64,000 nucleotides of DNA from contig CALQHT020000001.1 of NCBI GenBank assembly GCA_943330455.2, positions 1 through 64,000 on the forward strand, given 5' to 3'. This DNA is from Nitrosovibrio sp. Nv4 (GTDB lineage Bacteria; Pseudomonadota; Alphaproteobacteria; Acetobacterales; Acetobacteraceae). The translations under genes were made by a program, and so were the position numbers. This document shows, one piece after another, positions 41-11,460 of the stretch. The notes beneath the pieces were generated by a model, which was given only the letters and a program-made list of their open reading frames with translations, ran no database searches and was not told where the DNA came from. Numbering within the stretch: position 1 is the stretch's first letter; each line of letters opens with the position of its first letter.

Positions 41-75
41 ATGGTATGAAACACGCCGGAGACGGAGGATGTCCC

Positions 76-1032
76 ATGCCCAATGACATAAGGCCGGCAA
101 GTATCGCCGAAATGCCGGCACAGGTCCCAGCTTCGCCCCTGAGTCAGGCAGAAGCCCGCGGCCGCTTCTTCAACACGGGCAATGCGTTCAACGTCCAGCT
201 GCCGCCAGTGCCCGATCGAAGCTTTACCGATGAACCGATCAAGGCGCTGGACCCGGCCACGCCAACGGGCCTGATCCCGTGCGACATCTCCGCCGATCTG
301 GGCTGCGCGTTTCCCGCGACGACACCGCTCGTGCTGGCCCATTACGCCCGCATCCGCGCGGGAGAGAGCCTGACGACCGATTTCGTGACCAGCGGCACGA
401 TCGGCTACGTCATCCAAGGTTCCGGCACGACAAGCTGCGCGGGTGAAGATGTGAACTGGAATCCCGGCGATCTGTTCATTCTGCCAGGTGGCGAGCCGGT
501 GACCCATCAGGCTGGAGGCTCCGACGCGGTGCTATGGCTTGTGACCAACGAGCCGCAGCTTGCGTTTGAAAATCTGCGCGCCCCGGCGCCCGGCGAAGCG
601 CCGACCGATGTGGTTCATTACCGGGCGGACGAAATAAACCGTCAGATCGAGCTGATCTACGATGTCGGACGTAACGAAGAAATCGCCGGTTCGGCTTTGA
701 TCTTCTCCGCCGAACGCCAGGTGGCGACGCGCAATATCCTGCCTACCTTGACGGTGGCGATGAACTCGCTGCCCGGCGGTGTCGTGCAACGGCCGCATCG
801 GCATAACTCTGTTGCCGTGTCGCTGATCATCCGGGGCGATCGTTGCTTTTCGATGATCGATGGCAGGCGCAAGGAATGGGCGCCATGGGCGACAACGATC
901 ACACCGCCGGTTTCGGTGCATTCGCATCATAATGGCGGCAACGAACAGGCGCTGTTCCTGATCATCCAGGATGGCGGCATCTACTACCACGCGCGGGCCA
1001 TGGGTTTCGAATTCACCGATCACCCGGCGTAA
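76..1032 (+). CDS. Bicupin (cupin-domain) protein, possibly dioxygenase-like
   Basis: ORF 46..1032; internal ATG at 76 (MPNDIRPAS). Two cupin-like halves: GTIGYVIQGSGTTSC..GDLFILPGG and PHRHNSVAVSLIIRGDRCFSMI..W..ITPPVSVHSHHN. Confidence 0.75.
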   Translation: MPNDIRPASIAEMPAQVPASPLSQAEARGRFFNTGNAFNVQLPPVPDRSFTDEPIKALDPATPTGLIPCDISADLGCAFPATTPLVLAHYARIRAGESLTTDFVTSGTIGYVIQGSGTTSCAGEDVNWNPGDLFILPGGEPVTHQAGGSDAVLWLVTNEPQLAFENLRAPAPGEAPTDVVHYRADEINRQIELIYDVGRNEEIAGSALIFSAERQVATRNILPTLTVAMNSLPGGVVQRPHRHNSVAVSLIIRGDRCFSMIDGRRKEWAPWATTITPPVSVHSHHNGGNEQALFLIIQDGGIYYHARAMGFEFTDHPA

Positions 1033-1046
1033 CGGAGGGACCTGTC

Positions 1047-1931
1047 ATGGCACAATCCGCCGCAACCCAAATCTCGGTTCGTCCCCTGCATCCCGCCTTG
1101 GGGGCGGAAATTCACGGTATCGACCTGCGTGCGCCGGTGGATGCGGCAACGTGCCGTGCGGTCCACGATGCCTGGATGGCGCATCTGGTGCTGGTGTTCC
1201 CCGACCAGCCGATCACTGATGCCGAACATGTGACGTTCACCCGCAATTTCGGGGAAATCGAGATCTTTCACCAGAAGATCATCCGGTCCAACCGCATGCC
1301 GGAGATCTTTCGGGTATCCAACGTGGACGACGACAACAACCTGATGCCGCCCGAGCATCCGACCGTACAGCAAGTCTCGCTGGCGCAGCTTTGGCACACC
1401 GACAGCAGCTATCGCACCTTGCCCTGCGTCGGATCGTTGCTGCACGGGGTGGAAGTCAGCCGCACGGGGGGCGAGACCCAGTTCACCAACATGTATCTGG
1501 TCTACGATTCACTTCCGGATTCACTCAAGAAACAAGTCCAGGGCCGCCAGGCTCGCCATAATTTCGGGCACCTGCACACTTTGGCGAAGTTGAAGCCATT
1601 GACCGAGGCCGAGAAGGCATCGATGCCGCCGGTCTGGCAGCCAATGGTCCGCAAGCATCCGGTGACGGGGCGGCGGTCGCTCTATATCAGCCCCATCTAC
1701 AATGATGAGGTTGAGGGGATGGGCGGCGCCGAAGCCCGCCAATTGATCGAGGACCTGACCAGCTTCGCGGCCGAAACGCGCTTCGTGTATCGGCACAAGT
1801 GGGAAACCGACGATATCCTGATGTGGGACAATCGTTGCACGATGCACCAGGTCACGCCCCATGACCCGACCGAGCGGCGGGTCATGCATCGTACGACCAT
1901 TGTTGGCACGGAACCGGTGCTGGCAGCCTAA
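1047..1931 (+). CDS. TauD/TfdA family Fe(II)/2-oxoglutarate dioxygenase
   Basis: WHTDSS (HxD) and DNRCTMHQ (distal His) motifs; full-length ORF 15 nt after the cupin gene. Confidence 0.9.
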   Translation: MAQSAATQISVRPLHPALGAEIHGIDLRAPVDAATCRAVHDAWMAHLVLVFPDQPITDAEHVTFTRNFGEIEIFHQKIIRSNRMPEIFRVSNVDDDNNLMPPEHPTVQQVSLAQLWHTDSSYRTLPCVGSLLHGVEVSRTGGETQFTNMYLVYDSLPDSLKKQVQGRQARHNFGHLHTLAKLKPLTEAEKASMPPVWQPMVRKHPVTGRRSLYISPIYNDEVEGMGGAEARQLIEDLTSFAAETRFVYRHKWETDDILMWDNRCTMHQVTPHDPTERRVMHRTTIVGTEPVLAA

Positions 1932-2956: not shown

Positions 2957-3412
2957 CTACCCTTCCAATTCGAACCAGAAGTCCAGCATCTCGCCCTTCC
3001 GGACGGCGGCGAACTTGGTCATGACGCGCGTCCCAATGGCTAGCTTCTTCGCGGCCTGATGCGGGTCCGTCAGGTCGATGCCCTTGAAATACCCACCCAG
3101 CGCGGTGTCGGCGCCATCCAACAGCACATAGCCGAACGCATAGGGCGGGTCCGGCAGGTTGTTGAATTGCTCATAGACCATGGTGAACGCCTCGATCCGG
3201 CCGCCGGGCCCGACCTTTACCCAATCGGTCGTCGGCAGCAGCGTCTCGTCCGAGAACGCACGAGGTGGCACCAACACATGATTGGTTTTGGCGCAGCGGC
3301 GGCCGTAGATCGCGGCCTCATCGCGAATGCGGGTGTAGAACCAGCTCGCCGTCTCGCCCAAAGCGTGATCGTAGGTGATGTTCCAGGTTTCCTGGCGTCC
3401 CAGCAATTCCAT
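2957..3412 (-). CDS. DUF35 OB-fold protein with degenerate Zn-ribbon (acyl-CoA associated)
   Basis: IYGRRCAKTNHVLVPPR..DW..VGPGGRIEAFT pattern of DUF35 OB-fold proteins; only one ribbon Cys retained. Adjacent to thiolase-fold genes. Confidence 0.75.
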   Translation of the reverse strand: MELLGRQETWNITYDHALGETASWFYTRIRDEAAIYGRRCAKTNHVLVPPRAFSDETLLPTTDWVKVGPGGRIEAFTMVYEQFNNLPDPPYAFGYVLLDGADTALGGYFKGIDLTDPHQAAKKLAIGTRVMTKFAAVRKGEMLDFWFELEG

Positions 3413-3442
3413 CGTATGTATCCTTTCCCGAGACCTGTCCGG

Positions 3443-4624
3443 TTACGCCTCGATAACCATCGTGCCGAAAATCTGATGATCGCCGCCATTGCCGCTGGCA
3501 ATCCCAAGCCGTACCCCCTTCGCCTGATGATCCCCTGCTCGGCCCCACACCTGCAGGGCAACCTCGGCCACCCGCGCCATGGCTGTCACGGCGATGGCGT
3601 TGGTGCACAGCGTGCCGCCCGATGGGTTCACCGGGATGCGGCCGCCCAATTCGAACTCTCCGTCGCGCAACCGCGGGATCGAATCGCCGGGGCGGGCAAC
3701 CAGCCGCGCCGCGTCGATCGAGTGGTATTCCGTGTTGCTGAACGGCGCATACAACTCAGCGACATGCACCTGCTTGGCGGGATCGGTGATGCCCGCCATG
3801 CGATAGGACTTCTCGAACGACCGGCCCAAAGCATAGGCGTCGGCGTGTTCGGCTGTGGGATTGGTCCCCATGCGGTCGCCCATCCAATAGGTCTCTGCCG
3901 CATGGCCGACGCCGGTAATCCAGACCGCGTCAAGGTTATTGTCGCGGATGTACCGTTCGGACGCGAGCACCAGCGCAGCCCCACCCGACGATTGCGGGCA
4001 GCAATCCAGCAGCTTGATCGGCCAGGAGATGTACCGCGAGGTCATCACATCGTCGATGGTAACGACCTTGCGCAAATGAGCGTTGGGATTCAGCGACGCG
4101 TGGCGGCGATTCTTCACCGTTACGAGGGCCATGTCCTCCTCGGTCATGCCGTAGCGCTGCATGTAGCGCACCCCCGACATCGCCAGCATGTTGATAGTGC
4201 CCAAAGGCAGCGGGCGCTCGTAGCTCGGGTCCCAGATCTTGTTCAGGACGGTTTGCGAGTCGCCGCACTCACCGACCTTGTCCGCGCCGGCCGTCAGGAC
4301 GACGTCGAACATGCCGGACGCGACATGGTAATAGGCCGCGGCAACCGACGATATGCCGGTCGCGCCACCGGTGTTGATCCGCAGGAACGGCTTGCTGCGT
4401 CCACCAACGGCATCGACACCCAGTCGTTCGGCGTTACCGATCCCGACCATCGCGTCGGGCGAGAGCGAATATACGATCGCCTGGATCGCATCGAGCTCCA
4501 TTTTGGCGTCGTGCATCGCCAGCACGACGGCTTCCCGCACCAGGTCGGGATAGCTGGCGTCGTCCCGGCGAGACCGGAAGGCCGATTGCCCGATTCCGAT
4601 GATTCCAACACGATCGCCGCTCAT
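3443..4624 (-). CDS. Thiolase-fold protein (lipid-transfer/acetyl-CoA acetyltransferase-like), nucleophilic Cys apparently absent
   Basis: MSGDRVGIIGIGQSAF..; INTGGATGISSVAAAYYHVASGMFDVVLTAGADKVGE; IPVNPSGGTLCTNAIAVTAMARVAE. Start reassigned to 4624, giving ATGA overlap with the upstream gene. Confidence 0.85.
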   Translation of the reverse strand: MSGDRVGIIGIGQSAFRSRRDDASYPDLVREAVVLAMHDAKMELDAIQAIVYSLSPDAMVGIGNAERLGVDAVGGRSKPFLRINTGGATGISSVAAAYYHVASGMFDVVLTAGADKVGECGDSQTVLNKIWDPSYERPLPLGTINMLAMSGVRYMQRYGMTEEDMALVTVKNRRHASLNPNAHLRKVVTIDDVMTSRYISWPIKLLDCCPQSSGGAALVLASERYIRDNNLDAVWITGVGHAAETYWMGDRMGTNPTAEHADAYALGRSFEKSYRMAGITDPAKQVHVAELYAPFSNTEYHSIDAARLVARPGDSIPRLRDGEFELGGRIPVNPSGGTLCTNAIAVTAMARVAEVALQVWGRAGDHQAKGVRLGIASGNGGDHQIFGTMVIEA

Positions 4625-5760
4625 GAGCGTGCCTCCCGTCCCAGAACGATTGCGGCTTGATACTGCATCGCAAAGCCGCTGCCAGCGTGAGCCAGACCCC
4701 GTCGGGCGTTTGCATGTTGATGTGCGCCAGCCTTGCCACGCACTTGATTGACGATTTCGGCAATGCGGATCATGCCGGTGCAGAACACCGGATTCCAGGT
4801 CAACACCCCGCCGGACAGGTTCACCGGCAGGCGCCCGTCGCGAGCGAAACTGCCGTCTCCGGTCCGTGCCGCCCAGTCGTGGCGCGCGCACAACGACAAC
4901 CCATCATAGGCCAGCAGCTCGGAATAGGGGGTCGCATCGGTGATCTCCGCCAGATCGAAAGCGGTCGCCGGGTCGGTGATGCCAGCCAGGTCGTACGCCT
5001 GTTTGGCCGCCGCGGCCAAGGCGGGAGCCTGGGCCAGATCGCGATCTCCCAGGAAGCCGGTCTCTGTCGCCCAGCCCATTCCTTGTATCCACGCCACGTC
5101 ACGGGCCCCGCGTTCGGCGATGAAATCGGGTGCCGCCAGGACCATCGCCACGCATCCGGTGACGGGCGTGCTGGTCATCTCCGGCATCACCGGCCAGCGC
5201 AACGGACCGGCGCCGGTCGACAGGATCGGTGTCGGAAACGCGATGCGTCCATGGGCCCGGTTCTTGGCCACGATGGCTTCGGCGGCCTGCCGAGCGGTGG
5301 GAACCGCATGTTCCAGGGCCGCGGCTTGCAGCGCATGGGAAGACAGCTCGTCCAACGGCAACGCGCGATGGAAATACGGATCGGCCCCCAGTCGCTGGGC
5401 TTCGGACAGGGAGGAGACCTCGGTTGGGCTCCAGGACACCACCAGTTGCGTGCGAAACTGGCCGGAGGCGACCCTGAGCGCACCGAGAACGAAGGCGTGT
5501 TCGGACGCGGACGGTGTCGACATGATGTCGCGATCGACGCCGCCAACCGAACCCGACGCCATCATCACCGAAATTGCTCGCCCGTCGAACTGGTCGTTGG
5601 ATGCCACGACAATGCCGTCGATATCCTCGATGGTCAGGCCGGCATCCGCCAGGGCAAGTTGGCTGGTTTCGTAGATGATCTCTTCCAGAGATTTCTGTCC
5701 GGTGACGATCGCTGGTCGGATCGAGCACCCGATCACACCAGGCTGGACTCGGAAACCCAT
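4621..5760 (-). CDS. Second thiolase-fold protein, nucleophilic Cys apparently replaced
   Basis: LADAGLTIEDIDGIVVASND..; STPSASEHAFVLGALRVASG; LPVNLSGGVLTWNPVFCTGMIRIAEIVNQVRGKAG. Confidence 0.8.
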   Translation of the reverse strand: MGFRVQPGVIGCSIRPAIVTGQKSLEEIIYETSQLALADAGLTIEDIDGIVVASNDQFDGRAISVMMASGSVGGVDRDIMSTPSASEHAFVLGALRVASGQFRTQLVVSWSPTEVSSLSEAQRLGADPYFHRALPLDELSSHALQAAALEHAVPTARQAAEAIVAKNRAHGRIAFPTPILSTGAGPLRWPVMPEMTSTPVTGCVAMVLAAPDFIAERGARDVAWIQGMGWATETGFLGDRDLAQAPALAAAAKQAYDLAGITDPATAFDLAEITDATPYSELLAYDGLSLCARHDWAARTGDGSFARDGRLPVNLSGGVLTWNPVFCTGMIRIAEIVNQVRGKAGAHQHANARRGLAHAGSGFAMQYQAAIVLGREARS

Positions 5761-5792
5761 CGCGTTACTCCAGGCTTGGTTGATGATTGTTG

Positions 5793-6668
5793 TTACAGCA
5801 CGGCCATGGGACTGATCGGGCTGCCAGTGCCGCCGACCACTGGCAGTGGGCTGGCGGCGAACATGAACTGCCCGCGGCCGGTTGCCGCAAGGTCTTGCAG
5901 CACGAGACCTTCCAGCAGTGGAATACCGTAGTCGCGAATGAGCCGTTGATGGACAGGAAACACCGTGCCCTGCGGAAACGGAATGACCTCGATCGCAAAA
6001 TTGTCAGCGCCGAGCAGGGCTATGTTGCGTTCGGCGAGCCAAAGTCCGGCTTCGAGGTCCAAGCCAGGTTCCGCGTCGAACGACACCGGGGCGGTCAATG
6101 CCTGTTGTTCGGCCCATCCGGTGCGGATCAAAACGATGTCGCCTTTGCCGGGCTCCACGCCTGCCAGATCGACGGCGCGCATCAGATCGTCGCGCCCGAT
6201 TGTTTCACCGTTGGCCAATGGCCCACCTCGGACCGCGACGACATCCAGCAGCACGCCGCGTCCCACGATCGGGCCCATCTTGTCGATCCCGCAATGGGTG
6301 GCGCCCGTGGTGCTGCGCGTGCCGGTGCCCGGAAATCCATTGTAGAGCGCATCGTCGTACCACGCATGGCACAGCGCATCGATATGGGTGCCGATATGCA
6401 ACGGCAGGATCACGGTGTCCTCGGCAAACTGGAAGCCGCCCGGCCTGCGAGCCCCCGCCGCGTAATCGCCGCCATCGCGGCCCATGAAATGCTGCACGCC
6501 GGCTCGGTGCTGCGGCACTGGGGTCCGCGGCGACAGATTCTGTGCCAGCGACAGCACCTGGCCGGATTGCACAAGGGTGGCCGCATCGCGAATCTGCTGG
6601 GCATCAATATTGTTGAGCGCCCCACGTTCATCCGTCGCGCCCCAGCGGTTCCAGGCTTCCTTGGTCAT
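5793..6668 (-). CDS. Cyclase family protein (kynurenine formamidase-like metal-dependent hydrolase)
   Basis: HIGTHIDALCH metal-binding motif; start placed at MTKEAWNRWG (6668), ATGA overlap with the upstream ligase. Confidence 0.85.
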   Translation of the reverse strand: MTKEAWNRWGATDERGALNNIDAQQIRDAATLVQSGQVLSLAQNLSPRTPVPQHRAGVQHFMGRDGGDYAAGARRPGGFQFAEDTVILPLHIGTHIDALCHAWYDDALYNGFPGTGTRSTTGATHCGIDKMGPIVGRGVLLDVVAVRGGPLANGETIGRDDLMRAVDLAGVEPGKGDIVLIRTGWAEQQALTAPVSFDAEPGLDLEAGLWLAERNIALLGADNFAIEVIPFPQGTVFPVHQRLIRDYGIPLLEGLVLQDLAATGRGQFMFAASPLPVVGGTGSPISPMAVL

Positions 6669-8242
6669 GACGCGCGGCCCTGCGACAGGGAGGCGGCGAT
6701 CTGCTTCAATTCCCGGCGCATCAATTTGCCGGTGACTGTAACCGGCAGGGATTCCCGGATTTCCACGAAGTCCGGCACTTTGTAGCGGGATGCCAAGGTC
6801 CGGCAATGCGCGATGATGTCATCCCGATTGGGGTGCATGCCTGGTTTCGCCACGATAAAGGCAGCCAGCAATTCACCCTGCTGGCGATCCGGTACGCCGA
6901 CCACGCCGGCCAGTGCCACCGCGTCATGGCGCATCAGCACATCTTCGACCTCGGCGGGGGAGATGTTGATGCCGCCCTTCTTGATCATTTCGGTGACGCG
7001 GCCGCTGAAGGATATGGTTCCGTCGTCGCGGAACCGGCCCATGTCGCCCGTCCGGAAGAAACCATCGTCGGTCAAAGCGGCAGCCGTCTGGTCGGCGCTG
7101 CTGCCGATATAGGCGCGCATGACGTAGCCACGGACCTCGATCAGGCCTTCCTCACCGGCGGGCAGGGTCGCGCCGGTGGTGGCATCGACGATGCGGATTT
7201 CGACACCTGGCAGAGGCGGTCCCTGGCATTCGGCGCGGCGTTCCAGCGGCCAATCATGCGGTGTGACGCAGCAATTCCCATAACTCTCGGTCTGGCCGTA
7301 GACGTTGCAGATCTCCGTCGCGCCCAGCACATTGGCCGCGGTCAGGATGTCCTGAGGCGCACCGATCGTCAGGCCCGTCCGCAAGGTCCGTGTCCGTTCG
7401 GGCTTGAACGTCGGATGCGACACGATGGCGCTGGTGATGGCGGGCAAGGTATAGAGCGCGGTGCAACCGTGCCGTTCGATCAGGGAGATAGCCTCCCCAG
7501 CCTCGAACCGTCCTTGCAACACCAACGTGGCACCGTGAGTCAGCGCCGCGGACATCGCGTTGGCGCTGCCATAGGACCAGAACAGTGGGGGGGCGAGCAG
7601 GACACGGTCGTTCGGGCCATATCCCTGGCGTTCCCCGATGTTGAAGCCGTTCTCAATGATGCCGTAATGGCTCAGCGGCACGGATTTCGGTCGGCTGCTG
7701 GATCCCGATGTGTAGATCACGATTGCATCGTCCGTCGCGCTCGCTCCTTCCCCGGGGGCCAGGCGAACGAGCGGTGCCGGCGCAGCATCGGCAAACAGAC
7801 TGGTTGCACTGTCATGACGCACCAGTTCCACGTCTCGAAGTCCTGGGTAGCGCCCCTCTGCGATGAGGGATTTCAGATCGGCCGCAAAGTCATGATCCAT
7901 GAACCGATCGAGTGAGATCAGCATCCGGATGCCGGAATCGCCAAGTAGCCACTCCAACTCGTCTCGGGTTGACCAGGTGCTGAACGCGACGACCACGGCG
8001 CCGGCCATGGAGGCGCCAAAGAAAGCCTCCAGCCATTCCGGGCGGTTGTTGACCAGCAGCCCGACCCGATCGCCGCGGCGGATTCCCCGGGCGCGCATGA
8101 CCGACGCCACATGGCCGGCACGCTGAGCCAGGTCGGCATAGGAAAGCGTGCGTTGATCCGAGATCACCGCAGGATGGCTCCCATACCGCTCGGCCTGTTC
8201 GACGATCAACTCGCCCAGGGTTCGGCTGAACGGAGGCTTCAT
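6665..8242 (-). CDS. AMP-dependent acyl-CoA synthetase/ligase
   Basis: IYTSGSSSRPKSVPLSH (P-loop-like), NVYGQTE, FFRTGDMGRF, GRVTEMIKKGGINISPAEVE. Confidence 0.92.
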   Translation of the reverse strand: MKPPFSRTLGELIVEQAERYGSHPAVISDQRTLSYADLAQRAGHVASVMRARGIRRGDRVGLLVNNRPEWLEAFFGASMAGAVVVAFSTWSTRDELEWLLGDSGIRMLISLDRFMDHDFAADLKSLIAEGRYPGLRDVELVRHDSATSLFADAAPAPLVRLAPGEGASATDDAIVIYTSGSSSRPKSVPLSHYGIIENGFNIGERQGYGPNDRVLLAPPLFWSYGSANAMSAALTHGATLVLQGRFEAGEAISLIERHGCTALYTLPAITSAIVSHPTFKPERTRTLRTGLTIGAPQDILTAANVLGATEICNVYGQTESYGNCCVTPHDWPLERRAECQGPPLPGVEIRIVDATTGATLPAGEEGLIEVRGYVMRAYIGSSADQTAAALTDDGFFRTGDMGRFRDDGTISFSGRVTEMIKKGGINISPAEVEDVLMRHDAVALAGVVGVPDRQQGELLAAFIVAKPGMHPNRDDIIAHCRTLASRYKVPDFVEIRESLPVTVTGKLMRRELKQIAASLSQGRAS

Positions 8243-8509
8243 GCTCTGGCTACCAGCGATGCGGTCCTGTGCGGCATATCGGGTCCCTGATGGCTCATGA
8301 CGCCTGGCGGTCCATGGTGGTGGGCGCGCGTGGAGGAGCCGAGCGCCATATCCGAATTTTATTCACATTTATGGCGGGTGCGCGTAGCCTGTCAAGCGCG
8401 CGTTTCCGCGCTGGTGTCGGCCACGCCGGTTGGCACTGTATGCAGCGCCCGTTTGTGTCCGCCTCGTTGCGGTCGCATCCGGGTGACACGGAAGGAACCA
8501 GGGCGCGCC

Positions 8510-9250
8510 ATGCCTGACAGAGCCGCCAGACCAGCCACGCCGCGTTGGATCGAGATATTGACCCGGGCCGCGGTTGCCGACGTGGAGGGATCCCGCGACC
8601 TGAAGCAGGATCGCAGCCGACGCCGACAGCAGGACCTGCTGGTGGCTGCCACCCGCATTTTCGCCCGCGATGGCATCGCCAAGGCGAAAATGGCCGATGT
8701 GGCAGCCGAAGCCGGAATCCCGGTATCGTCGATCTACGACTACTATCCCAGCAAGGAGGATCTTGCTTATGCGATCCCGATCCAGCGCCTGACCGCATTC
8801 TACGCCGAATTTCTGGCCGAAGCGCCGTCACGCCCGACCATGCGTGACCGGTTGCATCTCTTCTTGTCCATGGCGACCGACTATGCGCGTCGCAACCCGG
8901 ACTGGGCTCGCCTGCTCTATCTCGAAATCTGGCCGAGCGTTTTGATCGAAGAGGCACGGGTTCGGAGAACGATTGATGATTTCGGGCGGATCGTGGTGGA
9001 GATGATCCGGGAGGGGAGCCGCCTCGGCGAATGGGATGCAAGGTTGGACCCCCACCGCTCCGCCACCATCCTTATGGGCAGCGTGACACACATGATCATC
9101 ACCTGGTTGCTGTATGGCCGGCCGGACGATTTGGCGCAGGCGGCCGGCCCGATGGTTGATCATCTGCTGATGCTGCTGGATGTGGGCGAGCCGCCCGAGG
9201 CGTCGTCAGGGCGATTGCGGGCGACGGAACCGGGTGATGTCGTGACATGA
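8510..9250 (+). CDS. TetR/AcrR family transcriptional regulator
   Basis: RQQDLLVAATRIFARDGIAKAKMADVAAEAGIPVSSIYDYYPSKEDLAYAI HTH; in-frame ATG at 8510; divergent from the ligase-thiolase cluster. Confidence 0.9.
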   Translation: MPDRAARPATPRWIEILTRAAVADVEGSRDLKQDRSRRRQQDLLVAATRIFARDGIAKAKMADVAAEAGIPVSSIYDYYPSKEDLAYAIPIQRLTAFYAEFLAEAPSRPTMRDRLHLFLSMATDYARRNPDWARLLYLEIWPSVLIEEARVRRTIDDFGRIVVEMIREGSRLGEWDARLDPHRSATILMGSVTHMIITWLLYGRPDDLAQAAGPMVDHLLMLLDVGEPPEASSGRLRATEPGDVVT

Positions 9251-9371: not shown

Positions 9372-9779
9372 ATGAAAATCAAGCGCGTCGAGCATATCGC
9401 CATCGCCGTCGATTCCATGAAGCAGTCATTGGAACTCATGCGGGATACCTTCGGCCTGGAGTTGGAATACGAGGAGCAGATCGGGCAGACCAAACTGGCG
9501 ATGCTGCCGGTCGGCCAGACCTATATCGAACTGCTGGAAGGCCAGGGCCCCGAGTCCGGCGTGACCAAGTGGATCGAGCAGAAGGGCACCGGCCTGTTCC
9601 ATATCTGCTTCGAGGTCGAGGATATCGAGGGCGCGATCGCCGAACTGAAGGCCAAGAACGTTAAGCTGCAAAGCGAGACCTGGAAGACCGGCCACGGTGG
9701 GTCGAAGATCGTGTTTCTCGACCCATCCTGCACCGGCAACGTGGTGATCGAACTCGCCGAACTTCCGGCGGGGCACTGA
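9372..9779 (+). CDS. VOC-family protein, methylmalonyl-CoA epimerase-like
   Basis: KRVEHIAIAVDSMKQSLELMRDTFGLELEYEE..GTGLFHICFEVEDIEGAIAELK. Confidence 0.85.
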   Translation: MKIKRVEHIAIAVDSMKQSLELMRDTFGLELEYEEQIGQTKLAMLPVGQTYIELLEGQGPESGVTKWIEQKGTGLFHICFEVEDIEGAIAELKAKNVKLQSETWKTGHGGSKIVFLDPSCTGNVVIELAELPAGH

Positions 9780-9780
9780 C

Positions 9781-10644
9781 ATGACCGGGTTCGTCCATCC
9801 GCAGTTCCTGGTCGAGACCGACTGGCTCGAACAGAATCTGGCCAATCCCGATGTTGTGGTGTTGGACTGCACGGTGCATCTGCAAGTGCAGCCGTCCGGT
9901 CCCTATAAGATCGTCCCGGGCCGGGCGGACTACGAGAAGGGCCACGTCAAGGGCGCCCAGTTCTGCGACGTGTCACGAGACGTGTCCGATACGACGCAGA
10001 AGTTCAACTTCATGCGGCAGAAGCCCGAGGATTTCGCAGCCTCGATGCGCCGCTTCGGGATCAGCAACACGACCCGTATCGTCACTTACAGTACGGCCAA
10101 TCCCTGGTGGGCGACACGGGTATGGTGGCTGCTTCGCGAATTCGGGCATGACAATGCTGCCGTGCTGAATGGCGGTTGGCAGAAATGGAGCAAGGAAGGG
10201 CGGCCGACCGACACTGGCCCCAGCCCCACCCGCGCGCCGGGCGATTTCACCGTGCAGGCCGTCCGCAACCTGATGGCGGACAAAGATGAAGTGAAGGCGG
10301 CGATGGGCAATGCGGCCATCTGCACGCTGAACGCGTTGATGCCCGCGCAATATGCTGGCGGCACCTATGGCAGGCCCGGCCAGATACCCGGCAGTGCGAC
10401 GCTCGCGGCGGCGCATCTGCTCGATCCCGCGACGAACACGTTCCTGCCGGCGGATGAATTGCGCAAGCGCCTGTCCGCGGTTGGGGCCATGGACCGCCCG
10501 GTGATCGCCTATTGCGGTGGTGGCATCGCGGCGACCGCCGACGCGCTGGCGCTGATCATGCTGGGGCACACGAACGTCAAGGTCTATGACGCGTCGCTGT
10601 CGGAATGGGCCAAGGATGAGAGCCTGCCGATACAGGCCGCGTAA
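9781..10644 (+). CDS. Sulfurtransferase, tandem rhodanese (3-mercaptopyruvate sulfurtransferase-like)
   Basis: Two rhodanese domains; active-site-like AYCGGGIAATA; VLNGGWQKW. Confidence 0.88.
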   Translation: MTGFVHPQFLVETDWLEQNLANPDVVVLDCTVHLQVQPSGPYKIVPGRADYEKGHVKGAQFCDVSRDVSDTTQKFNFMRQKPEDFAASMRRFGISNTTRIVTYSTANPWWATRVWWLLREFGHDNAAVLNGGWQKWSKEGRPTDTGPSPTRAPGDFTVQAVRNLMADKDEVKAAMGNAAICTLNALMPAQYAGGTYGRPGQIPGSATLAAAHLLDPATNTFLPADELRKRLSAVGAMDRPVIAYCGGGIAATADALALIMLGHTNVKVYDASLSEWAKDESLPIQAA

Positions 10645-10665
10645 GCACGAGGGAAGGAAACACCG

Positions 10666-11460
10666 ATGCTGGTTCCACTGAACGGACGCAACATCGCCTA
10701 TGATCTGGTCGGATCCGACACGGCTCCGGTCGTGTGCATGACCCACTCGCTGGCCTCGGACGGCGGGATGTGGGCCGAACAGGTGCCGGCACTGCTGGCT
10801 GGTGGCTTCCGTGTGTTGCGTATCGACATGCGTGGTCACGGCGGCAGCAATCCCGTCGCCGGCCCCTACACCATGAGCCAGTTGGCCGGTGACGTTGCCG
10901 CCGTGCTGGATACCCTGGCTCTGACCAAGGTCCATTACATCGGCCTGTCGATCGGCGGCATGATCGGCCAGGCTTTCGCGATCGAGCATGGCAACCGTCT
11001 TCTGTCCGCGATGTGGTGCGACACCATGCCGCAGACACCACCGGGGTCCCAGGCCACCTGGGAGGACCGGCAAAAAATGGTGCGCGACGCTGGCTCCCTG
11101 GAGTCCCTGGCAGACCCGACGGTGGAGCGGTGGCTGACCGATGCGGTCAAGATCGCGCGTCCGAACCGTTACAAGCAGATCCGCGACACCATCGCCGGCA
11201 CCACTCCGGCTGGCTATATCGGTTGTATCGACGCCATCCGGAACTACGACTTTGTGCCGAAGCTGCCATCGCTGAAGCTGCCCGTTCTGGTGGTTTGCGG
11301 CGCCGACGATGCCGGCACTCCGCCGGAGGCAAACCGTCGGATCGCCGAACTGGTGCCGGGCGGGCGCTATGAGCAGATCGCCGCGGCGCGTCATTTTCCG
11401 AATGTCGAACATCCGGAAACCTTCAATCACATCATGATGGATTGGCTGGGCGCCCAATAG
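10666..11460 (+). CDS. Alpha/beta hydrolase (3-oxoadipate enol-lactonase-like)
   Basis: MTHSLASDGGMW..RIDMRGHGGS..IGLSIGGMIGQ nucleophile elbow..ARHFPNVEHPE. Confidence 0.85.
   Translation: MLVPLNGRNIAYDLVGSDTAPVVCMTHSLASDGGMWAEQVPALLAGGFRVLRIDMRGHGGSNPVAGPYTMSQLAGDVAAVLDTLALTKVHYIGLSIGGMIGQAFAIEHGNRLLSAMWCDTMPQTPPGSQATWEDRQKMVRDAGSLESLADPTVERWLTDAVKIARPNRYKQIRDTIAGTTPAGYIGCIDAIRNYDFVPKLPSLKLPVLVVCGADDAGTPPEANRRIAELVPGGRYEQIAAARHFPNVEHPETFNHIMMDWLGAQ

Follow-up and report, generated by a model that had tools for sequence, protein, structure and literature searches.

The closest described relatives of the gene cluster analysed here are thiolase-fold proteins that operate without the nucleophilic cysteine or together with a DUF35 or other OB-fold partner. 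In the steroid aldolase CtSal, Tyr302 of a YDCY motif acts as the base and Cys304 as the acid, and Gly89, at the position of the thiolase cysteine, contacts the substrate hydroxyl through its backbone; the catalytic pair of Ltp2 consists of Tyr294 and Tyr344 (PMC12329534). PhlACB of 2,4-diacetylphloroglucinol biosynthesis, encoded in the order phlA-phlC-phlB, requires all three proteins, only PhlC being catalytic; Cys88 is essential to PhlC, whose His347 binds the phenol (PMC6392133). The benzoylsuccinyl-CoA thiolase BbsA-BbsB joins a DUF35 protein (PMC12329534) to an SCP2-type thiolase in an aromatic pathway, and IpfDE of ibuprofen degradation comprises a coenzyme A (CoA) ligase and a thiolase-like retro-aldolase (PMC9195938). 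Here, we describe a cluster at positions 2957-8242 of a 64,000-nucleotide stretch of contig CALQHT020000001.1 (the window), from a genome of the Acetobacteraceae, that encodes an acyl-CoA ligase (lig), a cyclase (cyc), two thiolase-fold proteins (thB and thA) and a DUF35 protein (duf35). Both thiolase-fold proteins have lost the catalytic cysteine.

Joint alignment of the two proteins with SCP2-thiolase, BbsB, archaeal ACAT and Ltp2 provided the register of the catalytic motifs. In thA (3443-4624, minus strand, 393 residues), CASG aligns to G87-A-T-G, with Gly87 at the position of the nucleophile, HDxF becomes Y292-A-P-F and GHP becomes N342-A. The same motifs of thB (4621-5760, minus strand, 379 residues) read S84-A-S-E, with Ser84 in place of the nucleophile, TDAT and N323-P; a four-column gap in its nucleophile loop makes the exact register less sure, and the protein contains no cysteine between Cys12 and Cys203. 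Accordingly, neither protein has the CxSG cysteine or the HDxF and GHP histidines of a thiolase in this alignment. The registers that had been read by eye, GATG and SASE, are correct. An intact cysteine had been named beforehand as a refuting result; the site lacks it in every orthologue of both proteins, and an intact cysteine in a shifted register was also sought, with none found near the nucleophile loop in any orthologue. In thA, the residues G87, Y292, P294, F295, C340, N342 and H383 are invariant across 14 aligned orthologues. The ratio of non-synonymous to synonymous substitution rates (dN/dS) of 0.06-0.09 indicates purifying selection. Of the five cluster proteins, thA is conserved best, at a mean identity of 85%; the means for lig, cyc, thB and duf35 are 70-81%. 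It is 70% identical to a betaproteobacterial orthologue.

The thiolase-fold pair matches the Pfam families Thiolase_N and Thiolase_C_1, thB matching Thiolase_C_1 without Thiolase_N. The fold of thB is nevertheless supported by its AlphaFold model (predicted template modelling score, pTM, 0.71), since Foldseek matches this predicted structure to SCP2-thiolase, BbsB, PhlC and Ltp2 over the whole length with template modelling (TM) scores of 0.67-0.74, PhlC-type structures being the top matches. The degenerate motifs of thB are conserved in its orthologues, and its dN/dS of 0.07-0.14 reflects purifying selection; together with the many invariant residues, this value rules out a decaying pseudogene. 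The third protein, duf35 (2957-3412, minus strand, 151 residues), is an OB-fold protein (PF01796, 31.4 bits against a cut-off of 27.1; Pfam match OB_ChsH2_C), which we propose to be a staple of the two thiolase-fold chains. Its zinc-ribbon CxxC...CxxC is replaced by GRRCAKTN...FSDETLL and is missing in all 8 aligned orthologues, and the zinc-ribbon cysteines are present in the DUF35 protein of a Rhodococcus relative. The window's own genome (G000) contains 8 DUF35 genes (loci L001-L008), several of which adjoin genes for thiolase-like relatives of the Sal-type protein.

All five open reading frames lie on the minus strand where the preliminary description had placed them, and the Pfam assignments agree with the gene identities given there. 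The operon is headed by lig (6665-8242, 525 residues), an AMP-forming acyl-CoA ligase (AMP-binding, 251 bits; AMP-binding_C, 67 bits) whose closest matches are feruloyl-CoA and fatty acyl-CoA synthetases. It is followed by cyc (5793-6668, minus strand, 291 residues), a metal-dependent hydrolase of the cyclase family (PF04199, 84.6 bits); its metal site HxGTHxDxxxH is intact as HIGTHIDALCH and conserved in 6 aligned sequences, and its closest solved structure, 5ibz, is uncharacterised. The ATGA overlaps of lig with cyc (6665-6668) and of thB with thA (4621-4624) are real in the sequence, and duf35 lies directly downstream of thA at a spacing of 30 bp. Both overlaps recur in relatives, for example in locus L047 (lig 7422-9086 with cyc starting at 9083, and thB 10001-11140 with thA at 11137), and that of lig and cyc is also seen in Rhodococcus ZPP. 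Two adjacent thiolase-fold genes followed by a DUF35 gene are found in the window and in all relatives with complete loci.

The five genes are co-inherited in Acetobacteraceae that are known mainly from metagenomes. We surveyed 33 genomes of the genus, 300 of the family (102 genera) and 399 of the phylum, and included two oxygenase genes from the same window: gdo (46-1032, plus strand), for a bicupin protein resembling ring-cleavage dioxygenases, and its partner tauD (1047-1931, plus strand), for a TauD/TfdA-type 2-oxoglutarate-dependent oxygenase. Within the genus, thB is present in 10 genomes; all of these also contain cyc and gdo, which occur in one and five further genomes, respectively (hypergeometric p = 1e-7 for thB with cyc and 3e-5 for thB with gdo, relatedness being ignored). 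At the family level, thB and cyc mark an identical set of 15 genomes from 9 of the 102 genera, a patchy distribution, and gdo occurs in 11 of the 15 and in 10 others. In the sampled genomes, thB-thA-duf35 is always accompanied by the ligase-cyclase pair. Since thB and cyc reside on separate contigs in genomes G007 and G022, where thB has flanks of at least 30 kb, their co-occurrence is not merely a matter of physical linkage. The module consists of three separately movable units that are kept within a genome, namely thB-thA-duf35, lig-cyc and gdo-tauD, the last often with a periplasmic binding protein. In the phylum sample, thB was found only in the window's own genome; the named records that carry the module are metagenome-assembled genomes of Acetobacteraceae, one of a betaproteobacterium from Lake Baikal and one of an unclassified proteobacterium. 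The survey bears out the coupling of these genes put forward in the preliminary description, as they co-occur in many genomes, the opposite of the outcome that had been named as refuting it.

Based on these sequence features, we propose that thB, thA and DUF35 form a heteromeric, cysteine-independent thiolase-fold C-C lyase, most likely a retro-aldolase that would convert a beta-hydroxyacyl-CoA to an acyl-CoA and an aldehyde or ketone; we hold this proposal with about even confidence. With the cysteine lost from both chains, non-thiolytic C-C cleavage, as had been suggested, stays the best reading of the predicted proteins. The retro-aldolase is favored because thA has Gly and Tyr as in CtSal and Ltp2, and because PhlACB offers a model for the roles of the subunits. 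The likeness to Ltp2-ChsH2 and Sal-Shy comprises the thiolase fold, the DUF35 partner and the replacement of Cys by Gly (G87 of thA) and of the HDxF histidine by Tyr (Y292). In such an enzyme, thA would be the catalytic chain, with Tyr292 as the base in the place of Ltp2 Tyr294 and Sal Tyr302, and C340, N342 or H383, candidates by position only, might supply the acid. Presumably, thB and the zinc-less DUF35 would have structural roles like those of PhlA and PhlB towards PhlC.

Several points weigh against a retro-aldolase. The aspartate and the third-position residue of the aldolase motif are missing in thA (YAPF instead of YDHF or YDCY), and thA has no equivalent of the second catalytic residue, Ltp2 Tyr344 or Sal Cys304, where A343/N342 and P294 stand, respectively. 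A phylogenetic tree places thA outside the Ltp2/Sal clade, and the AlphaFold model of thA has a predicted local distance difference test (pLDDT) score of 38, unusable for active-site geometry. No hydratase or dehydrogenase able to make a beta-hydroxyacyl-CoA is encoded in the window's cluster. A Sal-type protein with a YDCF motif near lig-cyc, in the Rhodococcus sp. ZPP plasmid pRZP2 (L085, 7840-8991, annotated as a thiolase family protein) and in genomes G160, G164, G066 and G091, makes CoA-thioester aldol chemistry plausible in this setting, but the gene is common in the family (42 of the 300 genomes, including the window's own) and not specific to the module. The idea that this Sal-type protein replaces thA and thB in the Rhodococcus version is weakened by the same frequency and by the four genomes above, which carry both. 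The Rhodococcus gene comes with its own zinc-ribbon DUF35; other Sal-type loci are L003 (contig C36 of the window's genome) and L102 (10010-11314).

The preliminary description had pointed to Ltp2/ChsH2 and BbsA/BbsB as known complexes of this kind, but the pair groups with neither Ltp2/Sal nor BbsB, as the residues and the tree rule out simple membership in either. In the tree, thA groups with A-type chains of other lineages (Shimodaira-Hasegawa-like approximate likelihood ratio test, SH-aLRT, 95), apart from the Ltp2/Sal-type proteins (SH-aLRT 99) and from the SCP2-type thiolases; the B-type chains fall outside and include two long branches whose placement is unsure. Unlike the steroid aldolases, the cluster has two thiolase-fold chains, of which thB has neither Gly at the cysteine position nor Tyr at the HDxF position, a DUF35 protein without zinc, no MaoC hydratase partner and no steroid genes. 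BbsB, in contrast, keeps its catalytic Cys and the HDAF and GHP motifs intact. IpfDE resembles the module by description, as a CoA ligase with a thiolase-like retro-aldolase in aromatic catabolism, but includes a dioxygenase system forming a dihydrodiol.

Judging from residues and phylogeny, thA belongs to a wider, PRK08313-like clade of cysteine-less A-type chains that are encoded next to a degenerate thiolase partner and a DUF35 protein. The same layout of thB-like, thA-like and DUF35 genes occurs on plasmids of Simplicispira, Rhodococcus, Cupriavidus and Streptomyces, and the A-type chains of these four lineages are without exception Cys-less, with Tyr and Asn occupying the positions equivalent to those of thA, implying that the loss of Cys is a property of the clade and not of the window. 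The Streptomyces pair, on a plasmid of Streptomyces clavuligerus, is PRK08313 with PRK07937 beside DUF35, its A-type chain having the Gly, Tyr and Asn. The window's proteins lie outside these curated NCBIfam families, however, thA scoring 274 bits against a cut-off of 514 and thB 88 against 419; moreover, the Streptomyces B-type chain keeps both histidines, whereas thB has neither, and the window pair is linked instead to lig-cyc and gdo-tauD. Ltp3 and Ltp4 of sterol degraders, reportedly needed for C24-branched sterol side chains according to the title of one paper (cited in PMC10398937), probably belong to the same paired kind, judging by gene adjacency. Their genes are neighbours, ltp4 being Rv3522 and ltp3 Rv3523 (PMC6429209).

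The nearest matches of gdo, tauD and lig point to aromatic acids as the substrate class. The bicupin gdo matches gentisate dioxygenases crosswise, its C-terminal cupin (HRH..H, a conserved H-x-H...H) aligning with their N-terminal metal cupin and its N-terminal with their C-terminal one, which indicates a permuted order of the cupin domains; tauD (PF02668, 218 bits) has its best solved-structure matches among the 2,4-dichlorophenoxyacetic acid (2,4-D) and phenoxypropionate dioxygenases of the TfdA/RdpA type. The module probably serves an undescribed catabolic pathway for aromatic acids. As a pathway, it deserves the word undescribed that had been applied to it, no ligase-cyclase-thiolase pathway having been found in the literature searched; as an arrangement, it does not, as paired thiolase-like proteins beside DUF35 recur in the four plasmid lineages above. 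In such a pathway, a Liv-type ATP-binding cassette transporter would take up the acid, tauD and gdo would oxidise it and open the ring, lig would form the CoA thioester, the cyclase would hydrolyse a lactone- or enol-type intermediate, and thA/thB/DUF35 would cleave the chain. A bolder version, which we advance tentatively as the less likely proposition, is that the lower pathway for aromatic acids is itself new and CoA-dependent. Ring opening by the permuted gentisate-type dioxygenase would be followed by formation of a CoA thioester of the product and its processing by the cyclase; the chain would then be cleaved by a thiolase-fold lyase of two chains, held by a zinc-free DUF35 staple, whose catalytic residues (Tyr292 with Cys340, Asn342 or His383) differ from those of Ltp2/Sal. 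If so, the A-type clade would count as an additional, independent lineage of C-C lyases built on the thiolase fold.

The linkage of a ring-cleavage dioxygenase and a hydrolase-type cyclase would also suit the main alternative, a retro-Claisen hydrolase. Its substrate would be a beta-ketoacyl-CoA, such as a lig-activated product of ring fission, and water, activated by Tyr292 or His383, would take the place of CoA in splitting it to an acyl-CoA and an acid. The nucleophilic Cys is gone and the acid/base set conserved, as such a reaction would imply, and because the cluster has no hydratase, a beta-keto substrate needs fewer missing steps. To our knowledge, however, no hydrolytic retro-Claisen enzyme of the thiolase fold has been described. 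In addition, the nearest characterised cysteine-less relatives with the Tyr are aldolases (PMC12329534), and we consider the hydrolase unlikely, though the strongest of the competing explanations.

The loss of all three classical catalytic motifs from both proteins, and of the zinc ribbon from DUF35, might instead mean that the two chains have no catalytic role and act for their ligase and cyclase partners, with which they strictly co-occur, as a scaffold, a chaperone or a carrier of CoA esters. This seems improbable, as thA is the best conserved of the set and its changes are residue-specific, the invariant Y292, C340, N342 and H383 being reminiscent of an active site. A C-acyltransferase or deacylase of the PhlACB type, which would move or remove an acyl group on a phenolic ring, is harder still to credit. 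The two systems share a three-part make-up of a degenerate thiolase-superfamily chain, a thiolase-like chain and an OB-fold protein, the gene order thB-thA-duf35 matches phlA-phlC-phlB, PhlC-type structures lead the matches of thB, and the neighbours are of aromatic type; but PhlC requires the Cys88 and His347 that it keeps, where the equivalent motifs of thA contain Gly87 and Asn342, and PhlA resembles 3-hydroxy-3-methylglutaryl-CoA synthase, whereas thB resembles SCP2-thiolase. Least probable of all, a biosynthetic module adding an acyl-CoA to a carbonyl in an aldol-type step for a secondary metabolite would fit the reversibility of aldol reactions and the patchy, accessory-cluster-like distribution, but the ring-cleavage dioxygenase, 2-oxoglutarate oxygenase, Liv-type uptake transporter and CoA transferases in the neighbourhood speak against it, and no genes for carrier proteins or for polyketide or peptide synthases were seen beside the module.

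By default, annotation assigns cysteine-less thiolase-fold proteins to the thiolases or the lipid-transfer proteins. Being compact, strongly conserved and inherited as a tight set, the module suits a direct test of the role of such pairs, as it has only three small genes, a single likely base and a defined partner ligase, which would reveal the class of substrate. If the complex is an aldolase, re-annotation is due for the whole PRK08313-like clade, which spans Actinobacteria, Alpha- and Betaproteobacteria, and a hitherto unknown breakdown route of uncultured Acetobacteraceae comes into view.

Among the neighbouring genes, a TetR-family regulator (tetR, 8297-9250, plus strand) is divergent from lig, as is its orthologue in L031, L032, L033 and L035; its TetR_N domain covers residues 114-159, and the true start is probably downstream of the called one, near 8510-8600. 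A methylmalonyl-CoA-epimerase-like gene (9372-9779) would have hinted at a propionyl-CoA product, but no orthologue lies beside the module in the relatives examined, and its link to the module was rejected. No remnant of a periplasmic binding protein gene was found in the 1 kb gap at 1932-2956. A family III CoA transferase is missing from the window's own cluster; in several genera, one is encoded directly upstream of thB (L081, 7343-8476; L079, 2885-4048; L084, 452-1825; similarly L076 and L078), and Liv-type transporter genes lie within or adjoin the cluster in other relatives.

The gdo gene adjoins tauD in L030, L032, L034, L036, L038, L039, L084, L104 and L105 and on a Variovorax plasmid. 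The two form a conserved unit also without the thiolase module, in L104, L105 and L089 (8986-10806; plasmid of Variovorax sp. SRS16 from linuron soil). Orthologues of gdo with an in-frame stop codon are found in L030 (9713-10678; G027:C407) and in G221:C970. Finally, a second, distantly related acyl-CoA ligase is encoded directly upstream of lig in L101 (3003-6226), L050 (5831-9114) and L055 (4258-7478).

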